64,000 bases of DNA from Actinomycetota bacterium (GTDB taxonomy: Bacteria; Actinomycetota; Geothermincolia; Geothermincolales; RBG-13-55-18), in assembly GCA_014360655.1 (NCBI GenBank), contig JACIXC010000013.1, positions 1-64,000 of the forward strand, in the 5' to 3' direction. Numbering within the stretch: position 1 is the first letter of the stretch; every line of letters begins with the position of its first letter. Below, piece after piece: positions 2,919-64,000 of the stretch. The notes below the pieces were generated by a model. The model saw nothing but the letters and a program-made list of their open reading frames with translations. It was not told where the DNA came from and searched no databases. The position numbers were made by a program, and so were the translations under genes.

Positions 2919-4389
2919 CGTCTTCCGGCCCCCTCGAGAAGCAGGTCATAGGCCGGGAGGTCGGCTGGGGATACGAAGACCTCCGCAGACGTATTTTCGG
3001 TGTTCCAGGAGAGGACCTCCTGCACCATATCCGCCGATATCTCTTCCGAGGTGTCCAGAAGCAGTCTGAGCGCCTCAGATGCCCTGGCCTCTCCCTCATC
3101 CGCCGCCAGCTTGAGTATCTTTAGATATTCACGGTCAGCACGATGCGGTGAGCTTTTCAGCAGGGCGTCGTAGGCGGCCCGGAAGCGGCTGGAGGGGAAG
3201 AGATCGGCACGGTAGCGGTAGGAGGCGAAGGCGCCGGGCTTCCGGATGAGCCAGTCGATGATATGGCGGTTTGGATATGATGACCGCCCTTTCCCCGCAA
3301 GCGGGGGATGGTCTCTACCAGCCTCTGGGCGTAGAAGACCTCCAGGCGGTCCGCGTGCACGCGCACGTCCACCTCGGAGCCGATGAGGCGCGAGGGCAGC
3401 GAGTAGGTGTTTTGTTTGACCCGGATGGTGGAGGACTTGCCCACCCCCACGCGGAGGCGCGTGAAGTCCTCGGTTCTTCTCTGTGGCAGGCGCCCGAGGT
3501 GGGGCAATTCCTCGGCCAGCCGCTCCACCCTTCCGGCGTTGCGCCTCAGGAAGAGATCCTTTATGAACCCTTCGTATTCGGATCGCGAGGAGAAATCACG
3601 GCTGCCCCTGAGCATGAGCGCCTGGTCCACCGCCCGCTTCATACGATGGTGGGATTGCTCGATATCCCCGTTCTCGTTGGCCTTGCCCGCCTGGGTCTTG
3701 GCCCCTTTTATGCCGTAGTGGGAGAGCAGGGCGTTGTACCTTTGTGTAAACTCCTCGGGGGACTCCGGTTTGGCCACTGCGGTGGTCAGGCGGTCGGTGC
3801 GATGCTCACTGGGGGTCCCTCCCAACTCCCACAGGGCGTCCTGCAACCCCTTGGAGAGGGCCTCGAAGCTCTCGGAGAAGCACACCTGCCCCGTTTCCCA
3901 GTTGGAGTAGGTCAAAGTGAAGTGATAGAGGAGATGGGGGAAGGGTTCCCCGGCGATGGTGATGCCCAAAGACGTCATGGAGGTGAAATCAGACTGCGAG
4001 AGCTTGCCGGGAGTGTGGACCTGGGGGAAGAATACCTCCTTCGGAGGGCCTTCAGTGGCCCGCCATATCTTGACCTTCCTCTGAAGGGTCCTGAGCTGCC
4101 CGTCCCGGAAGGTCCCCGGGTATTTTCTCTGCAGGTAATCAAAGAGGGTTTTGGCCTCAAGCCCTGGGCTCTCCTCCAGGAATCCCCTCACTTCGTCCCA
4201 GACCTCCGCGAAGGGATCGGGCCTCGTTCGGTAGGTTCTGGGTTGCCTGCATTGACTGGGTAGCTTATCGGAATCCCGCCATTTCCTGGCCGTCTTTTCG
4301 TCCATCCCGGCCTCAGCGGCGGCTTGCGCCAGCGTCTTTTTTTTCTGCATCAGCGACAATAGCCTCCTTACCTGTTGATCGGTAACCAT
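2915..4389 (-). pseudogene. istA: IS21-family transposase IstA, disrupted by a 1-bp frameshift
   Basis: DDE transposase of the IS21 element. An N-terminal HTH (residues about 5-40) is followed by a catalytic core with D134 (SQSDFTSM), D199 (EHRTDRL) and E244 (GDIEQSHH). The frame reads from ATG 4389 to about 3270, through the conserved RLRGKGGHHI, and then is lost. One base is missing at about 3269-3273, where HHI-[N/Q]-Y-RHIIDWL is expected. Restoring it continues RHIIDWLIRKPGAFASYRYR and on to a TGA at 2917-2915 overlapping istB, giving about 491 residues, normal for IstA. Unrepaired, the frame runs out-of-frame to 3157. It could be a genuine mutation or an assembly error. Confidence 0.85.
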
Positions 4390-4437
4390 CTAAGCCTCCT
4401 TTCTTGAGAGTCTTAGATAGTTGTACCGTCCCGCGAG

Positions 4438-4485
4438 CGGGAATTCTAATTGTCGTTGGCCGGGAATTCTAATTGTCGCTGATCA
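4438..4485 (+). repeat. IS21 terminal repeat (istA-side end), two direct copies
   Basis: The 18-mer CGGGAATTCTAATTGTCG occurs twice, at 4438-4455 and 4461-4478, and the element ends at CTGATCA around 4485. These lie just upstream of istA and probably include transposase-binding sites. Confidence 0.8.
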
Positions 4486-5198
4486 TTTACGAGACGTTCT
4501 GCTCGGAGGCGGGGATCGACGAGCCGCCAGACCTAAACGACGACAAGCGTATCATCATAGTCGGCTCCGAGGTAAAGGAGAAACTCGGAAGCGTGACGCT
4601 CTGGCTGAGAGACCATACCGTCGATATCAAAGTCATCGAGGTGGAGGTGTTCAAAGAGGGCGATAATCTCCTGATGCAGCCGCACGCAATCATCCCCTTA
4701 CCTGTTGGTCGGTTCACTTCCACGGGCAAGCCCGCTGGTGGTGGTGGGATGCAGCCTTGGGTCATGAACGGCAGGGAATGGCACCTGGAAAAGAGGTGCA
4801 GCCCTCAAACCAGGAAGATGTTTTAAGCTCTGGATGACATTATCAGGGACAACTTCGAGGTCGACGGACCCAGGTGGGGCCAAAAAGGCTACGTTGCATA
4901 CAGGTTGAACAACTACAATTGGATTAGGGTGGAAACAAGGCCTAACTCTCTTGTCCTGCTCATCCTGGTTGCTCCCGGCAAGTTCAACAAGGCAGAGTTA
5001 GCCAAGGCCTTGGAGATAGAGGAATTCGACGAGGAGGGAACGATAGCGGATAAGATGGGACTGCCGAGCTCGGTTAACATAAGGAAGCTCACCGAATCCA
5101 CTGAGCGGGTCATCCTACGGTTAAAAGGGGATTTCAACGTCCAAAGCGAAGCCTTCATCGGTTTTCTCAATAAGGCGTATAATGCCTTCCCGAAGTAG
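4486..5198 (+). pseudogene. Remnant of a DUF91-like PD-(D/E)XK nuclease-family gene
   Basis: One reading frame runs from the IS21 boundary to TAG 5196-5198, interrupted by an in-frame TAA at 4824-4826. The conceptual product contains KRIIIVGSEVKEKL, VDIKVIEVEVFKEG, MQPHAIIPLP and, after the stop, LDDIIRDNFEVDG, AYRLNNYNWIRVETRPNSL and a charged C-terminus. This is the pattern of the C-terminal half of DUF91/NucS-like nuclease-fold proteins. The N-terminal nuclease half, with the D-E-x-K residues, is absent because the IS21 element abuts the frame. Both the truncation and the nonsense codon mark it as dead. AT-rich composition resembles the HNH gene on the other side of the element, so both may come from one acquired block. 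The family call is from motif memory and is moderate. Confidence 0.65.
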
Positions 5199-5215
5199 TC
5201 CCAGATATGAGCGGA

Positions 5216-5353
5216 CTAGTCCTTACCCCTGTTGGCAACCAGGTCATCATCTATGCTCTCATTCTCTGAATTTTCCTGAGGCTTGATTTGGTTTAGGAGC
5301 TTAATGGCTTCTCTTAGCAATATTTCTGCCACCTGCTCCAACTCCTTCGCCAT
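5216..5353 (-). CDS. Small hypothetical protein (45 aa)
   Basis: ATG 5353 opens a frame of 45 residues: an amphipathic helix (MAKELEQVAEILLREAIKLL) followed by an acidic tail (ENESIDDD) and a TAG at 5218-5216. A GGGGTAG element sits directly upstream. Short proteins with this helix-plus-acidic-tail layout are found in mobile regions, often beside regulators, but I cannot name a family. It converges with the nuclease remnant. It could be a chance frame, though the helical amino-acid pattern argues otherwise. Confidence 0.4.
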   Translation of the reverse strand: MAKELEQVAEILLREAIKLLNQIKPQENSENESIDDDLVANRGKD

Positions 5354-5552
5354 ATCTACCCCGATTGCCGGCTTAAATTAGCCTCTGAACTTAACCTACC
5401 ACATAAGTGGCACTTTTTCTATAGCTAATTAGCAGGTTTTATAGGTAATAGAAGGCGAGATAACTAAAAATCAGAGCAAAATTATATTAAAGTAACAGAA
5501 GCCTCATATTCAACAGAAGCAACATTATTGCCAAAATTGCCAATAGCAAAGC

Positions 5553-5581
5553 TTTACATGCGTTAGGCGCAAATATAAAAT
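5553..5581 (+). promoter_or_regulatory. Sigma-70-type promoter for the XRE regulator
   Basis: TTTACA at 5553-5558 and TAAAAT at 5576-5581 are separated by exactly 17 bp, each matching consensus in five of six positions. The AT-rich block 5400-5590 ends here. Transcription would start near 5588, about 35 nt before the ATG at 5623. Confidence 0.6.
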
Positions 5582-5622
5582 ATATCCATGGCGTTCATGA
5601 AGGGGCATGGAAGGAGGCGGAC

Positions 5623-5901
5623 ATGCAAGAGGCGGAGGAGAAAAAGGAAAAGGGCACCGAGTTCGGGAGGTTCATAAAGCAACAAAGAAAGAGGCTTAAC
5701 CTGAACCAGCAGCAGGCGTCGGATATCGCCGGCATACACCTGACGCAGTGGTCTACCTATGAGGCGGGAAAGAGCCCGGCGGGAATGACCATAGCGACGC
5801 TGGGGAAGTTCGCGAAAGCCCTCAGGATACATCCGTCGGTCCTCATCGCGGTGATCTTCAAGGACAACCCGTTCGCATGGGAGGGTGAGCTTCCGGAATG
5901 A
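5623..5901 (+). CDS. XRE-family helix-turn-helix regulator (92 aa)
   Basis: A compact Cro/CI-type DNA-binding protein. Residues 12-70 form the HTH: FGRFIKQQRKRLNLNQQQASDIAGIH with the recognition helix around LTQWSTYEAGKSPAG, then the usual TLGKFAKALRIHPS closing helix. There is no extra ligand or oligomerisation domain beyond a short tail. AAGGAGG lies 6-7 nt upstream of the ATG, and a good promoter lies at 5553-5581. It may control itself or the genes to its right. Its GC-rich composition separates it from the AT-rich block to its left. Confidence 0.85.
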   Translation: MQEAEEKKEKGTEFGRFIKQQRKRLNLNQQQASDIAGIHLTQWSTYEAGKSPAGMTIATLGKFAKALRIHPSVLIAVIFKDNPFAWEGELPE

Positions 5902-51734: not shown

Positions 51735-52970
51735 CTACTCGTAGATCTTCTCGTCTTCGTTGAAGGCCTCCGGGGCGTCCAGCTCCACGTCCCTCCTCCC
51801 CTTCACCTGCTGCTCAAGCTCCTTGTAGAACTCGTGCTGGATGATGAGGTTCATGACCTGGTTGGTGCCCGTCCATATGGAGAGGAGGCGGGAGTCGCGC
51901 AGCATCCTCTCGATAGGATAGACGTTGGTGTAGGCGATACCCCCCATGGCCTGCATGGCGTTGTAGCAAATCTCCCACACGGCCTCCGTGGCGAACTTCT
52001 TCGCCTCCGAAACCATGCGCCGCATCCTTCCGTGGGGGACGCCGGAATCGATGGCCCGCGCCGTCATCCAGATGAGGCTGGCCATGGCGTCCAGCTTCAC
52101 CAGGCTCTCGGCGATCATGAAGCTCACCGCCTGGAAGTTCTTGATGGCCGTTCCGAAGGCCTTGCGCCGCGTGGTGTAGCGTGCCGCGAGCTCTATGGCC
52201 TCCCGCGCCGCCCCCACGCATCCGGCCGCCGAGGTCATGCGCTCGGGAACCATCATGCGGTAGAAGATGTGCGAGGCGCCGTTCTCCTCCCCCACCAGGT
52301 TCTCCGCCGGTACCCTGGTGTCGCGGAAGAGAACCCTGCCGGTGCCGCTGCCCCGCGCCCCCATGAGCCCGTAGACCGTCTTCACCTCCACGCTCTCGTC
52401 CCGTTCGACCAGGAAGCAGCTCAGGCCGTCGCGGGGAGGGGCGTCCGGGTCTGTGCGCGCGTAGACCATGAAGTAATCGGCTCCCTCCGCGCCCACGATG
52501 AAGCGCTTCTGGCCGTGCAGGACGTAGTGGTCGCCCTCGCGGCGCGCCGTGCACGTGGCGCCGAAGAAGTCGGAGCCGCCGCGCGGCTCGGTAAGCGCCT
52601 CCGCGCACACCTTCTCCCCCTTGATGGTGGGCACCAGGAAGCGCCGCTTCTGGTCCTCGCTCCCGAACTGGACGATGCACTCCCCCACGATGCTCACCAG
52701 GGAGTAGAGGCAGGTCAGTGGCACTCCCACCAGGGACATCTCGGAGATGGCTATGATCTCGTCTTCCCACTTCAGGCCCCGCCCCCCGTATTCCTCGGGG
52801 AAACGCAGGCCGAGGAGGTTCCTCCTTCCGGCCTCCTCCAGGAAAAACCTGGGAAAGGGCGCGATCATGGCATCCATGTCCAGGATGAGCTGGCGGGGGA
52901 CCCAGCTCACCAGGTCACGCACCTCCTCCTGCAGCCTCCTCTGCCCCTCGCTCATGACGAAGTCGAACAT
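51735..52970 (-). CDS. Acyl-CoA dehydrogenase (411 aa)
   Basis: Oxidises an acyl-CoA at the alpha-beta bond with FAD. Conserved parts: EEYGGRGLKWEDEIIAISEM, CAEALTEPRGGSDFFGATCTARR, GQKRFIVGAEGADYFMVYART, RKAFGTAIKNFQAVSFMIAE and MQAMGGIAYTNVYPIERMLRDSRL. The C-terminal motif is IWTGTNQV, where the general base glutamate of most members sits in IYEGTxQI; a threonine replaces it. The base may lie elsewhere, as in some subfamilies. The start at 52970 has GGAGG seven bases upstream and follows the MerR gene, which it overlaps in the region of its stop. Confidence 0.88.
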   Translation of the reverse strand: MFDFVMSEGQRRLQEEVRDLVSWVPRQLILDMDAMIAPFPRFFLEEAGRRNLLGLRFPEEYGGRGLKWEDEIIAISEMSLVGVPLTCLYSLVSIVGECIVQFGSEDQKRRFLVPTIKGEKVCAEALTEPRGGSDFFGATCTARREGDHYVLHGQKRFIVGAEGADYFMVYARTDPDAPPRDGLSCFLVERDESVEVKTVYGLMGARGSGTGRVLFRDTRVPAENLVGEENGASHIFYRMMVPERMTSAAGCVGAAREAIELAARYTTRRKAFGTAIKNFQAVSFMIAESLVKLDAMASLIWMTARAIDSGVPHGRMRRMVSEAKKFATEAVWEICYNAMQAMGGIAYTNVYPIERMLRDSRLLSIWTGTNQVMNLIIQHEFYKELEQQVKGRRDVELDAPEAFNEDEKIYE

Positions 52971-52972
52971 CC

Positions 52973-53647
52973 TCATCCCTCCCGTGACGGTCTCCCTGCG
53001 GACCCGCGGTCCCGAACCTTCGCGCCCCGTGCAGCGCCCTTCTCACCCGCCTTCTTCCCCGCCTTCTTCACTGGTCTCCTTCCCGGCCCCTTTCCCGGCC
53101 CCTCACGCTTCCCGGCGACGGGACCGAATTCCCTTTCCTCCAGCTCGGCGATGACCTTCCCCGCCGCTTCCAGGAAAGCTTCCCTCCCGCCGTCTCCCCC
53201 TCCCTTCCGTTGCAGGATAGCGAGGAAGTCCCGGGCGAATTCCAGCATCTCGCCGCGTATCTCCAGGAGCTCCTCTATCCTCTCGTCTATCTCGCGGATA
53301 TGCCGGAACCCGTATTCCAGGGTGCGCACGATCTGCTTCTCCTGGGTGGGGTCGGCGTCGTAGAGCGCGAGGATGTCGGCGAGCTCGGAAAGGGAATAGC
53401 CGAAGCGCCTGCCGCGCAGGATGAGCTTGAGGCGCGCCCGGTCCCGCTCGTCGTAGAGCCTCTGGCTCCTGGGGGAGTCGCGGTGGGGAGAGAGCAGCCC
53501 CACCTCCTCGTAATACCTGATGGCGCTGGGCGCGATGCCGAATTCTCCCGCCAGCTCCGAGATGGTCATCTTCCTGTCGCGTCCCATGGCCGTCCCGTCA
53601 TGCCGCCCCGCATACTCCCCCACGGGCTCCCTCGCCTCGTGAGTCAC
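52973..53647 (-). CDS. MerR-family regulator with basic tail
   Basis: A 224-residue regulator. The winged HTH begins MTISELAGEFGIAPSAIRYYEEVGLLSPHRD and continues QRLYDERDRARLKLILRGRRFGYSLSELADIL. A dimerisation helix (TQEKQIVRTLEYGFRHIREIDERIEELLEIRGEM) follows. From about residue 180 a Lys/Arg/Gly/Ala-rich tail (KREGPGKGPGRR...KKAGKKAGEKG) is appended, which may bind DNA or RNA nonspecifically. GTG 53647 overlaps the preceding ACAD stop (GTGA); ATG 53587 or 53569 would give shorter products. It sits between two acyl-CoA dehydrogenase genes in one operon. Confidence 0.82.
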   Translation of the reverse strand: MTHEAREPVGEYAGRHDGTAMGRDRKMTISELAGEFGIAPSAIRYYEEVGLLSPHRDSPRSQRLYDERDRARLKLILRGRRFGYSLSELADILALYDADPTQEKQIVRTLEYGFRHIREIDERIEELLEIRGEMLEFARDFLAILQRKGGGDGGREAFLEAAGKVIAELEEREFGPVAGKREGPGKGPGRRPVKKAGKKAGEKGAARGAKVRDRGSAGRPSREG

Positions 53648-55275
53648 CTACCCGCCGCCGTTTTCGCCGCGTATTCTCCCGCTTCCGCCGCGGCCTCTGC
53701 ATCGGCGAGGGCCAGGTCCTGGTAGGCGTGGAAGAGGCGGCCGCAGAAATCGTCCCAGCGCGTGCAGACCTCCAGCGTCCTCTCGTTCATCTCGAAGAGG
53801 TGCGGTATGGAGAGGAGCTCCCTTATCTCCCGCGAGAACTCCCCCACCAGGGAGGGGTCAGCCCCCCGCAGCACGGAGGCCACGAACTCGTCCGCCGGGT
53901 ACCATTCCGCCACCCGCTGGAAGTCCCGGTGCATCTGCGTGAGCAGCACGTTGCGGGGCCCCTCCCAGAGCTCGTTCACCAGCCCATCGCGCAGCATGCG
54001 GGGGAAAATGGAAAAGTCTTCCATGACGCCGTGGCCCCCGAAGAGGCTGATGCCCCTGCGGGCGAAGTCGTTGGTGTCCGCGGCAACGGTGATCTTCTGC
54101 AACATGACCAGCTGGCGCACCTCGAAGCGTCTCCTCTTCAGGTCCAGGGGTTCCCGGGTGGTGAGGCCGGGCGCGAGCCCGCCGGGTAGGGCGATGAAAT
54201 CGCGGTACAGCCTGAAGCTGCCGGCGATGGTGCGCCGGGTGCACCTCTCGTACTCGGCGATCTGCGCGGCCACCATGGGGAAAAGGTGCAGGGGGAGTCC
54301 GAAAGCGGTGCGGAACTCGGCGTACTTCCTGCCCTCGCGCAGCCCCCGCGCCATGCCCGCCCCTCCCCCTATGCCCACCACCAGGCGGGAGATGGTGAGC
54401 ACGATCCCCACCACGATGGCCACTCCCCTGTCCAGGGGCCCCACCGGGTAGGCGAGCGCCCCGTCGAAGGTGATCTCGGCGGTGGGCAGCTCCACCGTTC
54501 CCATCTTCCACTTCAGGCGGTCTATTGTGTACCCGTTGCGTATCTCCCTCTCCTTGTCCCGCCACATGGGGACGACGAAACAGCCCACGCGCTCCGAGCC
54601 GCTGGGCTTAGCCGTGACCACGGCGTAGTCGGCCTGGGCAGCCGAGCAGAAGAACTTCCTCCCGTAGATGCGCCATTCCCCGCCCTCCTGCACGGCCTCC
54701 ACGAGGTTGGCGGGGACGTCGGAGCCGCCCTGGATCTCGGTGACGAACTGGGCGCCTACGGCGTACTCGCCGTCGCGGCCATCCTTCACGTGTGCGAGGA
54801 TGCGCTGCGTCTCTGGTCTGTCGGCATATTTTTCCAGAAGTGCCGCCAAGCCCCACGTGCAGGCCAGCGGGCATACTATCCCCGCCTCGGAGTTCTCGCT
54901 CAAGAGAAAGATCTTCATGAAGCGGGCCCAGGGCGAGACGGCGTCCGAGAACATGCCCTCCGAGAAGACCTCCCTCTCCATGACCTCCGTCTCGTAAGGC
55001 CGCACTATGCGGTCGATGCGGTTCCCGTGTCCGTCGAAATGCTTCATGTAGGGCCGGTTCTCGGGCGTGGCCGCCCTCTCTGCGAGATCGCGCCAGCGGA
55101 AGGAGGCCTTGCGCGAGAACTCCCTGGCCTCGCGGTCCACCGCTTCTGCCTCGGGGCCCGCGAACGCGCGCAGCATCCTCTGCAGGAAAGGATCGTCCGC
55201 GTAGTAATCGACGTTCCTGCGCCACTCGAGGTAAGGGTTGAAGCTGTAGGGGTTGTTCCTGTCCGGTAGAGACAT
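53644..55275 (-). CDS. Acyl-CoA dehydrogenase (AidB-like, 543 aa)
   Basis: A 543-residue ACAD of the AidB/long group with an N-terminal extension before the fold. Conserved pieces: WGLAALLEKYAD, GAQFVTEIQGGSDVPANLVEAV, YGRKFFCSAAQADYAVVTAKP, GGAGMARGLREGRKYAEFRTAFG and a C-terminal NELWEGPRNVLLTQMHRD with the WEG glutamate. A four-helix bundle ends the protein. The ATG at 55275 has GGAGGTG upstream. First gene of the ACAD-MerR-ACAD operon. The substrate is not known; AidB-like proteins can act on branched or unusual acyl chains or be non-catalytic. Confidence 0.87.
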   Translation of the reverse strand: MSLPDRNNPYSFNPYLEWRRNVDYYADDPFLQRMLRAFAGPEAEAVDREAREFSRKASFRWRDLAERAATPENRPYMKHFDGHGNRIDRIVRPYETEVMEREVFSEGMFSDAVSPWARFMKIFLLSENSEAGIVCPLACTWGLAALLEKYADRPETQRILAHVKDGRDGEYAVGAQFVTEIQGGSDVPANLVEAVQEGGEWRIYGRKFFCSAAQADYAVVTAKPSGSERVGCFVVPMWRDKEREIRNGYTIDRLKWKMGTVELPTAEITFDGALAYPVGPLDRGVAIVVGIVLTISRLVVGIGGGAGMARGLREGRKYAEFRTAFGLPLHLFPMVAAQIAEYERCTRRTIAGSFRLYRDFIALPGGLAPGLTTREPLDLKRRRFEVRQLVMLQKITVAADTNDFARRGISLFGGHGVMEDFSIFPRMLRDGLVNELWEGPRNVLLTQMHRDFQRVAEWYPADEFVASVLRGADPSLVGEFSREIRELLSIPHLFEMNERTLEVCTRWDDFCGRLFHAYQDLALADAEAAAEAGEYAAKTAAGR

Positions 55276-55383
55276 GGTGGCACCTCCTCCGCCTCGCTCC
55301 GTCGCCGACGGCTACCCCGCAACCGGGTTCCCGCGCCTCCGCGCCCGCCCGCCAAGGGCGGCGGGCGCAGGTCAGGATTTTTA

Positions 55384-55399
55384 AAGTTCAATTTAACTT
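55384..55399. promoter_or_regulatory. Perfect palindrome, candidate MerR operator
   Basis: AAGTT-CAATTT-AACTT is a perfect 5-bp inverted repeat with a 6-bp centre, in an AT-rich patch 110 bp upstream of the ACAD gene at 55275 that heads the operon containing a MerR gene. MerR proteins bind such dyads between promoter elements. Confidence 0.5.
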
Positions 55400-56023
55400 G
55401 ATATCATAAACCTAATATCCCGCACCCCTGCCTGTCAACCGTATCCCTTGCCGGTCTCCCGATCTTTTTCGAGCAGGAAAGCGCCAACCGAAACGATTCA
55501 GCATCCCTTGCCGGCTCCGCTTTTCCCTCGACCTCGTTGCGGTTTTTCGCCTCCCCGACCAACCTGGTCGCCAGGGCGGATAAGTCGAACGTTTCGGGGG
55601 TCGCCCCTTTCTTCATCCGGGTTCAGCCTGTTTTGCCGGGATGATGGTACGGCATTGTGCGGCCTCTCGATCCTTTTCGACCCCAAGGCGCCCGGCGAAA
55701 CGGTAGGCTGGTGCGACCTCTGCGGGGAATATGTATTTCGACCCCCGGGCGCCCGGCGAAACGTCAACGTATCCCCTGCCGCCCGGAAGGCGCCTAGGTA
55801 ATGCTTGGGCACCCACTCCGCGCGCCCCCTGTCCGCGCTGTTATCCGCGACGCGTTCTGCGGCGCGCGGTTTTACGCGCCACGTCCCTCGCTGCCTCGCC
55901 TCCCGCGGCGAGCCCGTTCCCGTCACATCCTCCGGGCCGGCGCCGTACGCGTAATTCCCGTGAAGCCGCGCGGGGACCTCCCCGCCACCCCCCGCTTCCG
56001 CCGTCCCGCTGCATCGCGCCGGC
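55400..56023. other. Gene-free block with degenerate repeats
   Basis: About 620 bp without a supported gene. TTCGACCCC..GGCGCCCGGCGAAACG occurs at 55676-55702 and 55737-55763, period 61; shorter CATCCCTTGCCGG-like copies lie near 55440, 55500 and 55768. Nothing resembles a known RNA. It probably includes the operon promoter of the ACAD gene and the 3' region of the FGGY kinase gene. Confidence 0.45.
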
Positions 56024-57589
56024 TCAGGCCCAGCGGCGCGCCCTCTCCACCGCCCGCTTCCAGCCCGCGTAGAGCTGCTCCCGGGTGGCGGCGTCCATGC
56101 GGGGCTCGAAGACCCTCTCCACCCTCCTGGTCCCCAGGATGTCGTCGGGATATCTCCAGTATCCCGCCGCCATGCCCGCCAGGTAGGCGGCCCCCAGTGC
56201 CGTGGCCTCGAGCATTTCCGGGCGCTCCACCTGCACCTCGAGGATATCCGCCAGGAACTGCATGAGGAAGTCGTTGCGGGAGGCCCCCCCGTCCGCCTTG
56301 ATGGCGCGCACCTCGATGCCGGAATCCCCCTGCATGGCCTCGATGACGTCCCGGCACTGGTAGGCGATGGACTCCAGGGTAGCCCTCACCACCTGCTCGC
56401 GGGTGGTGGCCCGCGTGAGGCCGATCACCGTGCCCCGCGCGTAGGGGTCCCAGTAAGGGGCGGTGAGCCCGGTGAAGGCGGGGACCACGTAGACTCCGCC
56501 GCAGTCGGAGCAGGACTCCGCCAGCTCCTGCGACTCCGCGGCCTCCCTGATTATCTGCAGGTTGTCCCGCAGCCACTGCACGGAGGAGCCCGCGCTGGAG
56601 ATGATCCCCTCTATCATGTAGGTGGTCTTTCCCCCTATCCTCCAGGCGATGAGGGGGGTGAGCCTGTGCACCGAGGCCATGGGCTCCTCGCCCGTGTTCA
56701 TGTCGATGAAGGACCCCGTCCCGTTGGTGCACTTCACGCTCCCCGGCTCGAAGCAGGCCTCGCCGAAGAGGGCGGCCTGCTGGTCCGCCACCACGCTGCG
56801 GATGGGGATGGGTTCTCCGAAGGCCTCGGTGACCCCGAAGTCGCCGCTGGTCTCCCGTATCTCCGGCAGGCGCAACCCGCCCGGCAGCCCGAAGGGCTTG
56901 AGGAGGAGCGGGCTCCAGCGCATGCCGAAGGGGTCATACATGCCGGTGGCGCTCACGTTGGAGTAGTCGGTGGCGTGCACCGCTCCCCGCGTGTACTTCC
57001 ACACCAGCCAGGAATCCACGGTTCCGAAGAGCAGTTCACCCGCCTCCGCCCTGCGCGCCGCCCCCTCCACGTTGTCCAGGATCCAGCGGGCGTGGGCGGA
57101 GGACTGGGCGGGGGTCACGGTGAAGTGCGCCGCGGTGATGAGCAGCTTCCCCAGGCGGTTGCGCCGAAGGCCCTCGCCGAGGACGGCGATTCTCTGGTAA
57201 ATATTGCCAAGCAGGTGCAGGAAGCGGAACAGCGGGCTGCGGTTGATCTTCTCGCACGTGTCGGACATGCGCGTGTCCTGCCAGGTGATGGCGTTGTACA
57301 CCGGTTCCCCGCTCGCGCGGTCCCAGAGGAGGCTGGTGGCGCGCTGCGTGGCGATGCCCATGGCCGCGATGCGCGACGGCTCCACGCCCGCCTCCCTCAG
57401 GGTCTCCCGCGTCACCTCCACGCACTTCTCGAAGAGAAGGATGGGGTCCTGCTCCGTCCAGCCGGGCCTGGGGAACAACTGCGGGATCTCCGCGTAGGTC
57501 TCGTGGAGGATGTTCGCGTCTCGATCGAACAGGGCCGCCCGCACCCCCGTGGTCCCCACGTCGTTCACCAGGATATAGCGATCGTCCAT
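56024..57589 (-). CDS. FGGY-family carbohydrate kinase (glycerol kinase-like)
   Basis: A 521-residue sugar kinase. The N-terminal phosphate loop is VNDVGTTGVRAALFD, followed by WTEQDP and AITWQDTR. The second domain has VVADQQAALFGEACFEPGSVKCTNGTGSFIDMNTG, VPAFTGLTAPYWDPYARGTVIGLTR, and the adenosine site in KADGGASRNDFLMQFLADIL. The pattern is close to GlpK, but glycerol-specific residues differ, so ribulose, xylulose or another polyol are possible. The ATG at 57589 has GAGGGGG six bases upstream. It seems to be alone in its transcript. Confidence 0.82.
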   Translation of the reverse strand: MDDRYILVNDVGTTGVRAALFDRDANILHETYAEIPQLFPRPGWTEQDPILLFEKCVEVTRETLREAGVEPSRIAAMGIATQRATSLLWDRASGEPVYNAITWQDTRMSDTCEKINRSPLFRFLHLLGNIYQRIAVLGEGLRRNRLGKLLITAAHFTVTPAQSSAHARWILDNVEGAARRAEAGELLFGTVDSWLVWKYTRGAVHATDYSNVSATGMYDPFGMRWSPLLLKPFGLPGGLRLPEIRETSGDFGVTEAFGEPIPIRSVVADQQAALFGEACFEPGSVKCTNGTGSFIDMNTGEEPMASVHRLTPLIAWRIGGKTTYMIEGIISSAGSSVQWLRDNLQIIREAAESQELAESCSDCGGVYVVPAFTGLTAPYWDPYARGTVIGLTRATTREQVVRATLESIAYQCRDVIEAMQGDSGIEVRAIKADGGASRNDFLMQFLADILEVQVERPEMLEATALGAAYLAGMAAGYWRYPDDILGTRRVERVFEPRMDAATREQLYAGWKRAVERARRWA

Positions 57590-58183
57590 TGGCAGCCCCC
57601 TCACTGCATCACATCCTGCAAGTCAAATAATACCATGACCCTGCCCTCGAGGCTTTCGGCATCGCGGCCGCAACGCAGCGACGCCCTTCTCCGGCAAGCT
57701 GTCGTCCTCCCGCGCTTTATGGAGGTTCGCGCGCGAGAGAGTGAGCGAGCGAGTGAATGTCCATCCCCCGGCCCGCAAGCAGTGATATGAAACCCACCTG
57801 CGGGGGACGGGTGCGGCGAAGACCCGGCGGGGAGATCGGCAGTGGTCCGCGGCGCACTCCATCCCCGCCCCTCACCCCCATTACCCGGCCCCCTCCCCGC
57901 AGGCATTGCGGACTTGTACCCATCAAGCCCGGAGAACCATGGGGTCGGTCGCGGCGAGGACGCCTTTCCCAAGTTTTCGGGACTGCGGGTAAGGCACGGG
58001 GCGCCGAGCGAGACCGTTACCCCAAGGCTCCGGCCCGGAAGAAGGATTTGCACCCAACCAGGCCGGGAACGACCGAGTTGGTCGCATCTGAGCCCGCGAA
58101 GCGAGACCGTCACTCGGCGGCCCGGCCCGGAAGAAGGAGGGAAAAGGGTCAGGGGAGGGGGCGAAGCCCTCTCCCCTGGGTTC
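57590..58183. other. Gene-free interval with repeats
   Basis: About 590 bp. GCGAGACCGT.....CCGGCCCGGAAGAAGG is present from 58008 and again from 58101. AGGGGAG...CTCCCCT at 58151-58177 is an inverted repeat. Frames are shadow-like. I support no gene. Confidence 0.45.
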
Positions 58184-58231
58184 ACCTAAACCGCAGCATA
58201 TAGCGCCTGGCCCGAGGCGTTGCGTTTAGGT
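58184..58231 (-). terminator. Hairpin at the end of the CCG-domain gene
   Basis: On the minus strand ACCTAAAC (including the stop) pairs with GTTTAGGT, with an inner GCCTCGGGCCAGGC hairpin between. No U-run follows. Confidence 0.5.
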
Positions 58232-59218
58232 CGTATCGCCCAGCGCCATCTTCAAGAGCTCGATGAGGTGGTGGTTTTCCAGCCCCGCCGCCGTCGCCGT
58301 CTTGCGCAGGTTGAGCACGCACAAGGGGCAGAGGTAGGCCATGGCCTGCGCCCCGTGCTGCACGGCGTCATCGACGTTGCGCCTCCTTATCTCCATGGCC
58401 TTCTCCCGGTCGCGCGGCACCATGGGTGACCCGCAGCACATGGCGTGCCTCCGGTCGAACTTCCTCTCCACCCTCTCCACCCCGATGAGGTTGAAGAGCT
58501 CGTCCAGCCACTCGTCCTTCCAGGGGGTGTAGCGGGAGGCGCAGGGCTGCTGGTAGGCGACCTTCAACCCCAGGGGCCTTATCTCGTCGCGGCGCTCCCT
58601 GGCGCGTTCCAGCAGGTACTCGATGATGTGCACGGGGCGGAAGGGGACCTCCACGCCGTAATCCTTGACCATGGCCGCCAGAAGGGCGTAGCAGTCGTCG
58701 TGGTAGAGGACTATCTCCCGCGCGCCGCTCTCGGCCAGGCTGTCCACCACCCTCCGGGCGCCATCGCGCACCGGCGAGTGGTATCCGAGATGCACCCATC
58801 CCACGTTGCAGAAGTACCTGCCCCCTTTGAGGAAGGTGCACCCCGCGAAGAGGGGCCCCTCGAACAGCCCCGGTATCAGGTCTCCCACGCTGCAGAGCGA
58901 GAGCACCGGCCGGTCGGGTTCGCCCTCCACCACCTCGCTCGGGGCGTTGGGCAGGTTGCGAAAGAGCTGCGTGTTCTCCTCCGGGATGTTCAGCACTCCC
59001 GTTTCCTCCTGGCGCTCCAGGATGAGGTCGAAGGGATTGGCGCCCTTCTCGCAGAACTGGTTGCATGCCACGCAGGTGACGCACTCGCTCACGATCTCGG
59101 GCGTCTCCCCCTCCTTGAGGCGGCGGAACTGCTCGATGGACTGCTCGCGGTCGTAATCCATGTAGGGACATTTGAGGATGCAGTCGCCGCACAGGTTGCA
59201 GAGCTCCTCGTGAAACAT
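58226..59218 (-). CDS. CCG-domain Fe-S protein (HdrD/GlpC-like)
   Basis: A 330-residue electron-transfer protein. CNLCGDCILKCPY and CVTCVACNQFCEKGANP are the two ferredoxin motifs at the N-terminus. The CCG domain follows, with KVAYQQPCAS and a first CC-G in HAMCCGSPMVPRD, then LCPLCVLNL. The usual second CCG domain is reduced, so this is a short HdrD/GlpC/LutA-like unit. Such proteins hand electrons between flavin enzymes, quinones and disulfides. The ATG at 59218 has AAGGAGGG upstream. It is divergent from the SCP2-like gene at 59491, and likely partners with the acyl-CoA or alcohol dehydrogenases nearby. Confidence 0.85.
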   Translation of the reverse strand: MFHEELCNLCGDCILKCPYMDYDREQSIEQFRRLKEGETPEIVSECVTCVACNQFCEKGANPFDLILERQEETGVLNIPEENTQLFRNLPNAPSEVVEGEPDRPVLSLCSVGDLIPGLFEGPLFAGCTFLKGGRYFCNVGWVHLGYHSPVRDGARRVVDSLAESGAREIVLYHDDCYALLAAMVKDYGVEVPFRPVHIIEYLLERARERRDEIRPLGLKVAYQQPCASRYTPWKDEWLDELFNLIGVERVERKFDRRHAMCCGSPMVPRDREKAMEIRRRNVDDAVQHGAQAMAYLCPLCVLNLRKTATAAGLENHHLIELLKMALGDTT

Positions 59219-59330
59219 CTTTCCCTCCTTGCTCCGGTCGACCGGCCTCGAGCGGGAACACCGCGACAACCATGCTATCACAACAGCGGCAGGCCCGGCG
59301 GCGTGTCCGGTTTAACCCGCTCCGCGCGGG

Positions 59331-59410
59331 GGTAATATCGGTATATGCCGTATATATTTTATGATGCCTATTCAGTTTTACTTGTTTTGCATATATTATT
59401 AGGAGGCGGT
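59331..59410. promoter_or_regulatory. AT-rich divergent promoter region
   Basis: TATATGCCGTATATATTTTATG and TTTGCATATATTATTAGGAGG form an AT-rich island between the CCG-domain gene (minus) and the SCP2-like gene (plus). ATATCGG...CCGTATAT is a near palindrome. No single promoter pair is certain. Confidence 0.4.
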
Positions 59411-59490
59411 GGCGCCGGCGGCGCGCCGCAAGGCGGGAAAGGCGGCACGATTTGGGGGATCCAGCGAGGTGAAACGAAGGAGGGATAGTC

Positions 59491-60054
59491 ATGGCTCTGA
59501 CCTACGGCACGGATGAATGGGAACAGGCCTACCAGGAACTGGTCAAGGAGAGGCAAGCGGCCTCCTCCCCACCCTACATCATGGGCACCCCGGAATGGGT
59601 GGACCAGTACGAGAAGGCGGTGCAGAACGACGCCGCCTACAAGGAGGCGGCCAAGGACTGGGAGGGCTCGGTGGTCATCAAGGTCCTGGCCAAGCCGGAG
59701 GTGGGCCTGGACAAGGACCTCTACATCTTCATGGACCTCTGGCACGGCGACTGCCGCTCCATGCGCATCGTCCCCCCCGAGGCCGGCGAGGCCGGCGACT
59801 TCGTCATCACCGGCGAGTACGAGCGCTGGAAGTCGGTCATAAAGAAGGAGCTGGACACGGTCAAGGGCATGATGCAGGGAAAGCTCAAGCTGAAGGGGGA
59901 CCTCCCCACCATCGTGCGGGCGGTCAAGGCGGCCACCAGGCTGGTGGAGCTCTCCGCCGAAACCAACCCTCGCTTCCCCGACGAGTTGAGCGCGGAGGAG
60001 GTCGAGAGCCTGCGTGAGCTCCTGAAGACGGCCGGGGAGAAGTTCGGCATCTGA
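59491..60054 (+). CDS. SCP2-like lipid-binding protein (187 aa)
   Basis: A 187-residue protein of the sterol carrier protein-2 group, which holds hydrophobic molecules in a tunnel. Matching pieces are VVIKVLAKPEVGLDKDLYIFMDLWHGDCRSMRI, FVITGEYERWKSVIKKEL and GKLKLKGDLPTIVRAVKAATRLVEL with the G-x-L-x-x-K-G-D motif. An N-terminal helix of about 55 residues precedes the domain. A purine-rich GAAGGAGG lies 8-9 nt before the ATG. It opens a plus-strand run with the iron alcohol dehydrogenase and a second SCP2-like gene. Confidence 0.75.
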   Translation: MALTYGTDEWEQAYQELVKERQAASSPPYIMGTPEWVDQYEKAVQNDAAYKEAAKDWEGSVVIKVLAKPEVGLDKDLYIFMDLWHGDCRSMRIVPPEAGEAGDFVITGEYERWKSVIKKELDTVKGMMQGKLKLKGDLPTIVRAVKAATRLVELSAETNPRFPDELSAEEVESLRELLKTAGEKFGI

Positions 60055-60335
60055 GCCCTTCGCTGCTCAGGGACGGCGCGCGGGTCCCCGGCGGCGCTTC
60101 CCCGGGGACCCGCGCGGACTGCGCGGCGGGAGGAGGCGGGTCGGCTCCAGGCGCGAGCGGCGATATCGCGAGGGCGGACGTTTTCCGCCCTCGGGCGGCG
60201 ACTTTACGTATAGGCATCGAGGCAGACCTGGCGGCCCCTACACCGGCCCCGGGGCGGCGCTGAGAAGAAGCGGCCTTTCGACCGCACCGAAAGAGGCTCG
60301 CAGGAGGTGTTCCGGACTCACGGGAGGTGGTATGC

Positions 60336-61499
60336 ATGGCCTACGACAAGGACCTCGCCTTTATCTACAGGAACTACACGCGCATCGTCTTCGGCATCAA
60401 CACCGTCAACGACGTCGGGTCCGAGGTGGATTACCTCAAGTGCTCCCGGGCCTTCATCGTGACGGACAAGGGGGTAAAGGAAGCCGGACTGGTGGAGAAG
60501 GTGGAGAAGGGGCTGGGGAGCCGCCTCGTGGGCATGTTCGACGAGTGCCCCCAGGACTCGGGATTCCACATAGCAAGCCAGGCGGCGGAGATGGCGCGCG
60601 CGGCGGGCGCCGACTGCCTGGTGAGCGTGGGGGGCGGCAGCTGCATCGACACCGCAAAAGGTGCGGCCATCCTGCTCAAGGAGGGCGGCGACCTGCATGA
60701 CTACTCCGGGTACCAGCTTCTCACCCGCCCCCAGACCCCACACATCGCCATCCCCACCACCGCCGGGACGGGGAGCGAGGTGACCTACTTCTACGTCATC
60801 AAGGACTGGGACAGGAACATCAAGATCGAGTACGGGGACGATTACATCATCCCCAACACCGCCATCCTGGACCCGGTGATGACGCAGGGGCTCCCGCCCA
60901 TGCTCACCGCCACCACCGGCATGGACGCCCTCACCCACGCCATCGAGGCCATACACGCCACCCCGGCGGAGCCCATATCGGACACCATGGCCTTCGGGGC
61001 CATCCGCCTCATCATGGAGTATCTCCCCCGCTGCGTGGAGAACGGGGACGATCTCTTCGCCCGGGGGCAGCAGCAGATCGCGGCCACCATGGCCGGCGTG
61101 GCGTTCGGCAACGCCCAGGTGGGGCTGGTGCACGGCATCGCCCACACGGTGGGAGCCGTCTGCGGCGTCCCCCACGGGCTGGCCAACAGCATCCTTTTGC
61201 CGCACGTCATGAAGTACAACCTCGACGAGTGCGCGGACCGCTACGCCCTCGTCGCCGAGGCCATGGGGGTAAAGGAGAAGGGCATGAGCGACGAGGAGGC
61301 GGCGGAGGCCGCGACCGCCGCGGTGTGGGAGCTGACCAAGAGGATGGGGGTGCCACAGACGCTGCGCGAGGTAAACGTCCCCGAGGAGATGCTCCCCGAG
61401 ATAGCGGACCTCACGTTGGGCACCGGACCGGTGGTCTTCAACCCCAAGATGATCTTCGAGGCCGAGCAGGTGCTCGAGGTCTTGAAGAACGCCTACTGA
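60336..61499 (+). CDS. Iron-containing (type III) alcohol dehydrogenase
   Basis: A 387-residue NAD(P)-dependent metal alcohol dehydrogenase. The nucleotide loop is LVSVGGGSCIDTAKGAAIL, followed by IPTTAGTGSEVTYF. Metal ligands fall in GMDALTHAIEA (D, H), LVHGIAHTVGAVCGVPHGLANSILLP (two H). The N-terminal strand (FIVTDKGVKEAGL) is normal. ATG 60336 with GGGAGG upstream is better than ATG 60332, which is out of frame. It lies between two SCP2-like genes, suggesting a hydrophobic alcohol or aldehyde as substrate. Confidence 0.9.
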   Translation: MAYDKDLAFIYRNYTRIVFGINTVNDVGSEVDYLKCSRAFIVTDKGVKEAGLVEKVEKGLGSRLVGMFDECPQDSGFHIASQAAEMARAAGADCLVSVGGGSCIDTAKGAAILLKEGGDLHDYSGYQLLTRPQTPHIAIPTTAGTGSEVTYFYVIKDWDRNIKIEYGDDYIIPNTAILDPVMTQGLPPMLTATTGMDALTHAIEAIHATPAEPISDTMAFGAIRLIMEYLPRCVENGDDLFARGQQQIAATMAGVAFGNAQVGLVHGIAHTVGAVCGVPHGLANSILLPHVMKYNLDECADRYALVAEAMGVKEKGMSDEEAAEAATAAVWELTKRMGVPQTLREVNVPEEMLPEIADLTLGTGPVVFNPKMIFEAEQVLEVLKNAY

Positions 61500-61645
61500 G
61501 GGGCTTGGGGAAGGGCGCCGGGCGCGGGAAGCGAGTGCCTTTCACGACGGTGCGGCGCAGCGGTACAGCCCGCGATACGGCAGGGCTCCGTAAGAAGGAA
61601 TATCGTCCCTGAAAGGATGGGGCTTTTAGGAGGAAAGGAGGAGAC

Positions 61646-62062
61646 ATGGCCGACATCAGCCTGGGAACGGGCGCGGAGGAGGTCCCCCTGGCGGGGATGC
61701 TCGCGGACATGCTCAAGGCGAACCTGGAGAAGCCGGAGAAGCTGAATGACTTCAACAAGTTGAAGGCGCGTGTGCTCATCCACGCCGAGGACGCCGAGGC
61801 CAAGATCACCATGGACTTCGACCGCGGCAGGCTTGTGGTCTACGGCGGCGAGGTGGGCAAGCCGAACATATCCATCTCCACCGACGCCGCCACCCTTCTG
61901 GACCTGGCCAACATCAAGATCAAGTTCGGGCTGCCCTGGTATTTCGACGAGACCGGCCTGGGCGTGGTGAAGAAGCTGCTGAAGAGGGAGCTGAAGATCA
62001 AGGGCATGTTCACCCACCTGGGAGCCCTTACCAGGCTCACCAAGGTCATGTCGCTGAACTGA
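61646..62062 (+). CDS. SCP2-like lipid-binding protein (138 aa)
   Basis: A 138-residue protein related to the one at 59491 only in outline. KARVLIHAEDAEAKITMDFDRGRLVVYGGEVGKPNISISTDAATLLDLANIKIKFG and LKRELKIKGMFTHLGALTRLTKVM match the SCP2 strand-strand-helix order with the closing K-I-K-G helix. AGGAAAGGAGG precedes the ATG. It comes after the iron alcohol dehydrogenase and before the aldehyde:ferredoxin oxidoreductase, so a carrier role in that pathway is plausible. Confidence 0.65.
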   Translation: MADISLGTGAEEVPLAGMLADMLKANLEKPEKLNDFNKLKARVLIHAEDAEAKITMDFDRGRLVVYGGEVGKPNISISTDAATLLDLANIKIKFGLPWYFDETGLGVVKKLLKRELKIKGMFTHLGALTRLTKVMSLN

Positions 62063-62327
62063 CCGCTTCCACCGCGCCATGTCAGGCAATCCCGGGGGCA
62101 TGAGCCCATGGCGCGGAGCGCACATTCCCCCGCGAGAGCCGGCGAGGGAAGGCGAAAGGAAGGCGGAGGGGGGTTGCTGCCCAGCCCGAACAAACCATGG
62201 CGCGATGTGCGGATCTCCTTTCGGCGGGAGTTCTCGCCTCGGGGTCAGACCGGGACATGTGCCCCGAGGACGACGAGCAAGTCACGTCCCCCGGAACGAC
62301 AGCGGTAATTAAAGCGAGGTGATACTG

Positions 62328-64000
62328 ATGGCATACGGCAACATGGGCAAGGTGGCGGAGGTGGACCTCACATCCGGCACGGTAAGCGAGATAGAGCTGG
62401 ACGAGCAGATCTACCGCGACTACATAGGCGGGGCCGGCCTGGCGGCCAAGCTCCTCTACGACCGCGGGAACCTGGACGCCGCGCCCCTGGACCCGGACAA
62501 CCTCCTCATCTTCGCCACCGGCCCTCTCACCGGGATCGGCTTCTCCGGTTCCAGCCGCCTCTCGGTGGGAGCGCGCTCCCCCCTGACGGGCATCTGGGGA
62601 CAGGCCTCGTGCGGGGGTAACTTCGGCCCCGAGCTGAAGCGCTGCGGCTACGACGCCCTCATCCTCAAGGGGAAGGCGGATAGGCCAGTCTACCTGCTGC
62701 TGGGCAACGACAGCGTGGAGATCGCGCCCGCCGAAGACCTGTGGGGAAAGGACGTCTACGAGACCACCGACATCCTCAAGGAAAGGCACGGCAAGCAGTG
62801 CAAGGTCCTCGCGGTCGGGCCAGCCGCCGAGAACGGGGTCCCCTTCGGGAGCATCACCAACGACTACGGGCATCACTTCGGCCGCTCCGGCATGGGCACG
62901 GTGATGGCCTCCAAGAACGTCAAGGCCGTCGCCGCCCAGGGCGACAGGAAGATGGAGTACGCCGACCCCGAGAAGGTCAAGGCCATGCAGGAGGAGCACC
63001 GCGAGCTGGTGAAGGACAGCATCTTCTGTAGCGCCATCTCCGCCTTCGGCACCGGCGCCAACATGGAGGCCAAGATGTACGAAGGCGACGTGCCCACCCG
63101 CAACTGGGGGCAGGGCCTGTGGGAGGAGGGGGCGGAGAAACTCTCCGGCATCGCCCTCGCCGACAGCTTCATAGTGGACCACGCCAGCTGCCGGGGATGC
63201 GCGGTGCGCTGCAAGCCCGTGGTGGAGGTGAAGGAGGGGCCCTACGCCATGGGACCCGGCCCGGGACCCGAGTACGAGACGCAGGCCTCCTTCGGCACCA
63301 TGATCATGAACGACAACCTGGCAGCACTGTGCAAGATCAACGACTTCTGCAACCGCATGGGCATGGACACCATCACCTGCGGTGCCACCGTCGCCTGGGC
63401 CATGGACTGCTTCGAGGCGGGCATCCTCAAGCCCGAGGACTACGACGGCGTGGAGCTCAAGTGGGGTGACGTGGACGCCGTCATCGACCTCCTCCCCAAG
63501 ATCGTCACAAGGGAGGGAAAGCTGGGGGCCCTGCTGGCCAAGGGTTCACGGGCGGCCGCGGAAGAGATCGGAGGAGGGGCGGACGCCTTCCTCACCGACT
63601 CCAAGGGACTGGAAGCCCCCATGCACGACCCCCGCTGCAACTGGGGGGATGGCCTCGCCTATGCCGTTTCCATCCGGGGCGCCTGCCACGTATCCAACCT
63701 CACCTTCCTCCTTGAGTGGGGGGCCATCGAGTATCCCGAGATAGGGCTGGACAAGAACTACCAGCCGCAATCGGCAGAGTACAAGGCGGAGGCCGTGGCC
63801 CTTACCGCGGACCTGGGTTGCATCATGAACTCCGCCTGCTGGTGCGAGTTCCCGGGCACCATCTACTCGGTCACGCAGTGGGCGGAGCTCTTCAACGCCG
63901 TTGCCGGGTACGGCTGGGACGTGGAGAAGATGATGGAGGCGGGAGCCCGGGTATGGTTCCTGCAGCGATGCCTGGGCCACATCTGGGGCGCCACGGGAGC
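62328..64000 (+). CDS. Aldehyde:ferredoxin oxidoreductase (truncated by window edge)
   Basis: At least 557 residues before the window ends; the family is about 600-700. It oxidises aldehydes to acids (or reduces acids) using a tungsten or molybdenum pterin and one [4Fe-4S] cluster, with ferredoxin as partner. Visible markers are the N-terminal MGKVAEVDLTSGTV and YIGGAGLAAKLLYD, GPLTGIGFSGSSRLSVGARSPLTG, GRSGMGTVMASKNVKA, CRGCAVRCKP with three cluster cysteines, and GPEYETQASFG. The fourth cysteine should lie further on or beyond the edge. GCGAGGTGATACTG precedes the ATG. It follows the alcohol dehydrogenase and SCP2-like genes in the same direction. Confidence 0.9.
   Translation, partial: MAYGNMGKVAEVDLTSGTVSEIELDEQIYRDYIGGAGLAAKLLYDRGNLDAAPLDPDNLLIFATGPLTGIGFSGSSRLSVGARSPLTGIWGQASCGGNFGPELKRCGYDALILKGKADRPVYLLLGNDSVEIAPAEDLWGKDVYETTDILKERHGKQCKVLAVGPAAENGVPFGSITNDYGHHFGRSGMGTVMASKNVKAVAAQGDRKMEYADPEKVKAMQEEHRELVKDSIFCSAISAFGTGANMEAKMYEGDVPTRNWGQGLWEEGAEKLSGIALADSFIVDHASCRGCAVRCKPVVEVKEGPYAMGPGPGPEYETQASFGTMIMNDNLAALCKINDFCNRMGMDTITCGATVAWAMDCFEAGILKPEDYDGVELKWGDVDAVIDLLPKIVTREGKLGALLAKGSRAAAEEIGGGADAFLTDSKGLEAPMHDPRCNWGDGLAYAVSIRGACHVSNLTFLLEWGAIEYPEIGLDKNYQPQSAEYKAEAVALTADLGCIMNSACWCEFPGTIYSVTQWAELFNAVAGYGWDVEKMMEAGARVWFLQRCLGHIWGATG

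Follow-up and report, generated by a model that had tools for sequence, protein, structure and literature searches.

The window analysed here, which covers the opening 64 kb of the 102-kb contig C13 of an actinobacterial genome of 2.97 Mb in 35 contigs, ends in a run of genes that encode two proteins related to sterol carrier protein 2 (SCP2), an iron-containing alcohol dehydrogenase (ADH), and an aldehyde:ferredoxin oxidoreductase (AOR). The first SCP2 protein, SCP2a, is paired with the ADH nearly without exception in two phyla, and the pair is found again in a third. In our judgement there is an even chance that these genes constitute a conserved module of anaerobic metabolism that interconverts a poorly soluble alcohol, aldehyde and carboxylic acid, with hand-over by the SCP2 proteins, in the oxidative direction, and with ferredoxin as the acceptor. 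The closest named relatives of the source genome are Candidatus Solincola and Geothermincola (Actinomycetota). An initial annotation of the window had listed five genes, and the positions and families of all of them agree with the open reading frames and profile matches:

58226-59281, minus strand: Fer4 and CCG protein with two 4Fe-4S motifs (PF02754, 42 bits), divergent from the module
59491-60054, plus strand: SCP2a, 187 amino acids, TT1886-type SCP2 lipid-carrier protein (PF02036, 45.3 bits, cut-off 21.3)
60336-61499, plus strand: iron-containing (group III) ADH (PF00465, PF25137)
61646-62062, plus strand: SCP2b, 138 amino acids, SCP2-fold protein (PF02036, 30.8 bits, cut-off 21.3)
62328-64190 of the contig, plus strand: AOR, 620 amino acids, complete (PF02730, PF01314)

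The AOR gene is interrupted by the end of the window at 64000 and is whole on the contig (L005:7329-9191). The open reading frame of the ADH opens at a GTG at 60327, while the start at the ATG at 60336 agrees with most relatives.

Linkage of SCP2a and the alcohol dehydrogenase

Conservation was evaluated in the class of the window, in 98 genomes of the G060 class (Bacillota by member titles such as Dethiobacter and Syntrophomonadaceae metagenome-assembled genomes), in 379 genomes of the G063 phylum (many of them large; probably Myxococcota by member titles), and in a collection of named genomes; the linkage statistics are drawn from searches and fetched stretches. In the named collection, this ADH (61-88% identity) could be tested at 13 loci, and at every one SCP2a lies directly upstream; these loci span Actinomycetota, Bacillota and one Deltaproteobacteria-labelled genome. 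Within the window's class, the ADH lies directly 3' of SCP2a in 21 of the 22 best SCP2a loci, a count that takes in L025 with its gap of 484 bp and whose exception is L040, where there is no ADH. The ADH likewise directly follows SCP2a in 25 of the 30 best loci of the G060 class, the five exceptions being a locus truncated at the end of its contig (L094), one in which SCP2a is beside an AOR (L092), and three distant core-only SCP2 proteins. In the phylum of G063, SCP2a followed directly by the ADH is present in 12 of the 379 genomes, and the proteins of these pairs (G063 itself excluded) are 38-54% (SCP2a) and 44-51% (ADH) identical to those of the window.

The reverse search, which used an ADH alignment against the 98 Bacillota genomes, retrieved 26 orthologous ADHs in 25 genomes; for 25 of these ADHs the contig extends far enough to show the upstream side, and each has SCP2a there. 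The orthologues score at least 452 bits, the lowest-scoring being genes cut by contig ends, while the two next-best iron ADHs reach 342 bits and have no SCP2a beside them. Full-type SCP2a and the orthologous ADH thus occur in an identical set of 25 among the 98 genomes, for which the odds of coincidence are about 1e-23 if kinship is ignored, a figure that kinship weakens. The linkage of SCP2a and ADH is beyond chance, which is excluded because the gene neighbourhood is conserved. In a tree of 45 ADHs, only four of them unlinked, the 41 SCP2-linked ADHs are on one side of a branch with support of 99/97. The two other iron ADHs of the window genome have no adjoining SCP2a.

Families and folds of the proteins

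Proteins of the SCP2 fold bind lipids in a hydrophobic tunnel. Both SCP2a and SCP2b score over the PF02036 cut-off and have the SCP2 fold in their predicted models. In particular, SCP2a matches the PDB structures of TT1886 (1wfr, 2cx7) with a phmmer E of about 1e-20, and its AlphaFold model (pLDDT 88) has 2cx7 as the top fold match, with a TM of 0.90 by target length, so that TT1886 is of the same type by both sequence and fold. For SCP2b, no convincing match was found in the PDB by sequence, and its model (pLDDT 78.5) is closest in fold to UbiJ-SCP2 (6h6n-p), with sterol carrier protein 2 also among the best matches. Unlike TT1886 and UbiJ-SCP2, the two SCP2 proteins described here belong to a conserved gene set with an ADH and an AOR. 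Both models also match the SCP2 domains of the alkylsulfatases SdsA1 and Pisa1 (2cfu, 2yhe), where, as envisaged here, an SCP2-fold domain works with an enzyme on long alkyl substrates; in those enzymes, however, the domain is fused to a hydrolase of the metallo-beta-lactamase (MBL) fold, whereas here the SCP2 proteins are separate candidate carriers for redox enzymes. SCP2a is proposed as a candidate carrier that feeds the ADH with substrate, and SCP2b as a candidate second carrier, for example of the aldehyde.

SCP2a is 57-93% identical across 13 loci and has relatives outside the module. The window genome holds three copies in total, of which two (L050, G000:C1:345786-346343; L051, G000:C8:115300-115854) are paralogues of 54-60% identity with no adjoining ADH or AOR, the one on C8 adjoining a TetR-like regulator and NADH/hydrogenase-like Fe-S genes. 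Elsewhere, one relative has a GMC oxidoreductase next to it and an acyl-CoA ligase in the vicinity (L061:5571-7404) and another adjoins a molybdopterin oxidoreductase (L055:5020-8287), and SCP2a may be a broader partner of oxidoreductases in the window's class. Distant core-only relatives without ADH are found in other Actinomycetota, in the phylum of G063 and in Bacillota; in many genomes of the G063 phylum (loci L110-L116, L121, L122) the core-only homologue directly adjoins a response-regulator and/or GAF-like gene. Given these paralogues and core-only relatives, SCP2a was rejected as a pure marker of the module. None of the loci examined holds a fusion of module proteins: an apparent ADH-SCP2b fusion in L129 (open reading frame 4124-5740) was rejected as the frame holds SCP2b alone, and the long frames around SCP2a in L044 and L117 are not fusions.

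The ADH has the PF00465 and PF25137 domains and the four metal ligands (one Asp and three His) of group III iron ADHs, and the ligand positions D200, H204, H269 and H283 are invariant in 14 homologues. It falls below the curated cut-offs of the substrate-specific models for iron ADHs (lactaldehyde reductase, ErcA, 4-hydroxybutyrate dehydrogenase and others), the best score being 305 versus 523 bits; with all curated scores far under their cut-offs, naming it after any characterised enzyme was rejected. Residue 151 of lactaldehyde reductase makes a polar contact with diols. The aligned residue is mostly Ala across the family, and the ADH of the window has Phe there, which weakly suggests that diol substrates are less likely.

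The AOR has the AFOR_N and AFOR_C domains across its full length, with 261.9 bits for PF02730 (cut-off 29.8, E 5e-78) and 373.2 bits for PF01314 (cut-off 27, E 2e-111). Alignment with the AOR of P. furiosus (1aor) shows that the motifs CRGCAVRC, SACWC, GPEYE and ACHV are kept, and with them the FeS cysteines (CxxCxxxC and a distal Cys) and the active-site Glu and His of that enzyme. By analogy, this AOR would contain a tungsten-pterin cofactor and couple aldehyde oxidation to ferredoxin. MoaD-like genes adjoin the AOR in L057 and L144. At L052:6466-8331 (G000:C4) there is a stand-alone AOR paralogue, 71% identical to that of the window, that has neither SCP2 nor ADH beside it; an acyl-CoA ligase is located about 3 kb from it.

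Recruitment of the oxidoreductase and proposed function

The AORs joined to the SCP2a-ADH pair fall into at least three deep clades with long branches between them; therefore, an AOR joined the pair more than once or was replaced, and this recurrent association argues more strongly than any other observation that the AOR acts in the same pathway as SCP2a and the ADH. The content of the module persists while the gene order shuffles:

SCP2a-ADH-SCP2b-AOR: the window, its class, L016
SCP2b-AOR-SCP2a-ADH: L138
AOR-SCP2a-ADH-SCP2b: L133
SCP2b-SCP2a-ADH: L139-L141
AOR-SCP2a-ADH: L142
MBL-AOR-MoaD-SCP2a-ADH: L144
SCP2a-ADH divergent from AOR-acyl-CoA ligase: L015, L017, L145, L157, L159

The acyl-CoA ligases that flank the module, and that are beside the AOR in several relatives, score best against long-chain models. 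An MBL-fold gene recurs near the module across genomes and orders (L144:10860-11855, L138:10109-11092, L012:11754-12746, L005:13199-13912).

On this basis, SCP2a would bind a hydrophobic alcohol and hand it to the iron ADH, which would oxidize it to the aldehyde with NAD+. SCP2b, or SCP2a again, would then hold the reactive and poorly soluble aldehyde and pass it to the tungsten-type AOR, which would generate the acid and reduce ferredoxin, and an acyl-CoA ligase would convert the acid to acyl-CoA for beta-oxidation. What is observed is the genes themselves, the families to which they belong and how tightly they are linked in evolution, together with the folds of predicted models; a hydrophobic substrate, carrier hand-over, the oxidative direction and a ferredoxin acceptor, the last from knowledge of the AOR family, are what we infer from them. 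In particular, delivery of a hydrophobic alcohol and its aldehyde to the two enzymes is favoured because the pairing of SCP2a and ADH is strict, a second SCP2 protein is present, paralogues are located beside other oxidoreductases, and ligases of long-chain type lie by the AOR. The carrier-assisted anaerobic route from alcohol to acid put forward in the initial annotation is partly supported by the conserved linkage, the SCP2 folds and the long-chain-type ligase. It would have been refuted by SCP2-like genes that are not kept beside ADH and AOR, and the surveys described above showed the opposite. The acyl-CoA dehydrogenases, however, are not the closest partners, and the link to the CCG protein is confined to the window's own family.

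Several points weigh against this explanation. SCP2-fold proteins can be partners without a carrier role, and AORs can run towards acid reduction. In four loci (L013, L018, L127, L158) the SCP2a-ADH pair has no AOR within the stretch read, and the AOR is a frequent, not a constant, neighbour. In L144, from Bacillota, genes for a dehydratase activase, a HadBC-type 2-hydroxyacyl-CoA dehydratase and a BktB-like thiolase are near AOR-SCP2a-ADH. Finally, a single transcript is not assured in this genome because the gaps among the plus-strand genes are 146-281 bp, while in many relatives SCP2a and ADH are spaced by just 20-60 bp; purine-rich stretches ahead of the plus-strand genes are possible ribosome-binding sites, and a promoter scan found nothing.

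The first of these points leads to an explanation in which SCP2a is a dedicated partner of this ADH clade, in assembly, membrane docking or regulation, and not a carrier, so that hydrophobicity of the substrate does not follow. A pairing with the ADH that is far stricter than that of the AOR would agree with such a role, as would the architecture of SCP2a, in which the SCP2 core is extended by about 35 conserved N-terminal residues and a C-terminal helix. Paralogues by unrelated oxidoreductases, of GMC type in L061 and of molybdopterin type in L055, suit substrate delivery better, and the set holds a second and different SCP2 protein; we therefore consider a pure partner role unlikely.

The direction of the flux can also be questioned. 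Reduction of acids by AOR and ADH occurs in acetogens, and an identical gene set would serve if the AOR used reduced ferredoxin to reduce the acid and the ADH then made the alcohol, for disposal of reductant or for alcohol or wax synthesis, with the SCP2 proteins holding the products. The linked genes for acyl-CoA ligase, acyl-CoA dehydrogenase, hydroxyacyl-CoA dehydrogenase and thiolase point instead to activation and breakdown of the acid, and no gene for wax-ester or fatty-acid synthesis was recognised beside the module, making reverse flow improbable.

With regard to the substrate, the dehydratase genes of L144 mean that long-chain fatty alcohols are not the sole candidates, and that amino-acid-derived or aromatic substrates are allowed. 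AORs take aromatic and short aldehydes, and an activase-like fragment was seen by eye in L142, so that the module could act on small or aromatic substrates, such as amino-acid-derived or benzyl-type alcohols, with the SCP2 proteins acting elsewhere. Such evidence is confined to two related loci, however, and the usual linked ligase fits long-chain models best; this option, too, appears improbable, and oxidation of a poorly soluble alcohol with carrier hand-over is the explanation we prefer.

Neighbouring genes and relation to known systems

The genes around the module are as follows:

51735-52976 and 53644-55275, minus strand: acyl-CoA dehydrogenases, about 4.2-7.8 kb from SCP2a
56024-57604: glycerol-kinase-like gene, between the SCP2a side and the acyl-CoA dehydrogenases
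64684-68066 of contig C13 (L005:9685-13067), same strand as the AOR, just past the window: DUF35, thiolase-fold, thiolase-fold and DUF35 genes

Beyond the DUF35 block there is the MBL-fold gene, on the minus strand, and then a 3-hydroxyacyl-CoA dehydrogenase and an acyl-CoA ligase. The description of the module as being next to acyl-CoA dehydrogenases proved too loose, as these lie 4.2-7.8 kb away, past the glycerol-kinase-like gene; the closest downstream partners are the DUF35/thiolase-fold block and the acyl-CoA ligase. The CCG protein has GlpC/HdrB-like models as its closest curated matches, all far under cut-off. The gene is present and divergent as had been described, but it is linked to the module only within the window's own family, its position being kept in L007, L008, L011, L025, L147-L149, L153 and L154 only, and it was rejected as a core part for want of linkage outside that family. 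The protein is a candidate electron carrier and family-specific accessory that may carry electrons onward. The block upstream of the module is likewise conserved in the family: between window positions 53644-59281 and L008:152-5100 (Ca. Solincola), the order of AidB-like acyl-CoA dehydrogenase, glycerol-kinase-like and CCG genes is kept, with 82%, 84% and 79% identity.

Neither of the downstream thiolase-fold proteins has the nucleophilic Cys of thiolases, and each has a DUF35 partner. The steroid aldolase motif is YDHF in Ltp2 and YDCY in Sal (PMC12329534); at this site the first protein has YDAF, and it shares with Ltp2-ChsH2 and Sal-Shy (6ok1; PMC12329534) all three of the thiolase fold without Cys, the DUF35 partner and YDxF. 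In contrast to those systems, the pairs described here, as putative aldolases, are downstream neighbours in one family. Possibly they are retro-aldolases whose product, an aldehyde or ketone, is formed next to the AOR, and within the window's family they may supply or consume aldehydes. The aldehyde would then come from retro-aldol cleavage of a 3-hydroxyacyl-CoA, in anaerobic degradation of isoprenoid or steroid-like side chains, with the AOR oxidizing it and the ADH balancing aldehyde and alcohol. Apart from the motif and the missing Cys, identity of the block among relatives is 78-92%, a level of conservation similar to that of the AOR, which argues for this origin; against it, no locus examined outside the window's family has the block beside the module, the second protein has YLPA and not YDxF, and the genes next to the block include no identified hydratase or steroid gene. 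We regard such an origin as rather doubtful; it is compatible with carrier-assisted alcohol oxidation, and both can hold. The combined proposal, in which two dedicated SCP2 proteins shuttle an insoluble alcohol and its aldehyde between ADH and AOR and, in Geothermincolia, are coupled to Cys-less thiolase-fold/DUF35 retro-aldolases that release the aldehyde, in the manner of aerobic steroid or isoprenoid side-chain cleavage but without oxygen, is similarly tentative.

Oxidation of alcohols by ADH and AOR, of the ethanol/acetate type, is known in anaerobes. As in the module described here, the ADH converts alcohol to aldehyde and a tungsten AOR converts aldehyde to acid with ferredoxin; in contrast to it, the substrates are short and soluble and SCP2 proteins are not known to take part. 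The AorABC system of Aromatoleum type is similar in being a bacterial AOR with extra electron-transfer proteins, whereas here there is only the divergent CCG/Fer4 protein; neither an AorA-like ferredoxin nor an AorC-like flavoprotein was found among the AOR neighbours in the window or L005, and the AOR was not assigned to AorABC. In the open literature, where absence is weak evidence, no paper was found that joins SCP2 or sterol carrier proteins with AOR, or AOR with long-chain alcohols, and none on the set as a whole (papers retrieved by broader queries deal, by title and abstract, with other subjects), in keeping with the initial view that no described pathway has this exact set.

Collectively, known enzyme families apparently form an undescribed module, namely ADH-AOR alcohol oxidation with lipid-carrier partners, by which a heat-loving actinobacterium probably oxidizes oily alcohols to acids in the absence of oxygen. 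The searchable literature describes no obligate pairing of lipid carrier and ADH that AORs of different descent have joined repeatedly, in two phyla at least and probably in three. If the carriers deliver hydrophobic alcohols and aldehydes, the module would show how anaerobes handle insoluble and reactive aldehydes, would widen the range over which tungsten AORs are known to act, and would serve as a marker for hot-spring and subsurface bacteria that use fatty, isoprenoid or steroid-like alcohols anaerobically.

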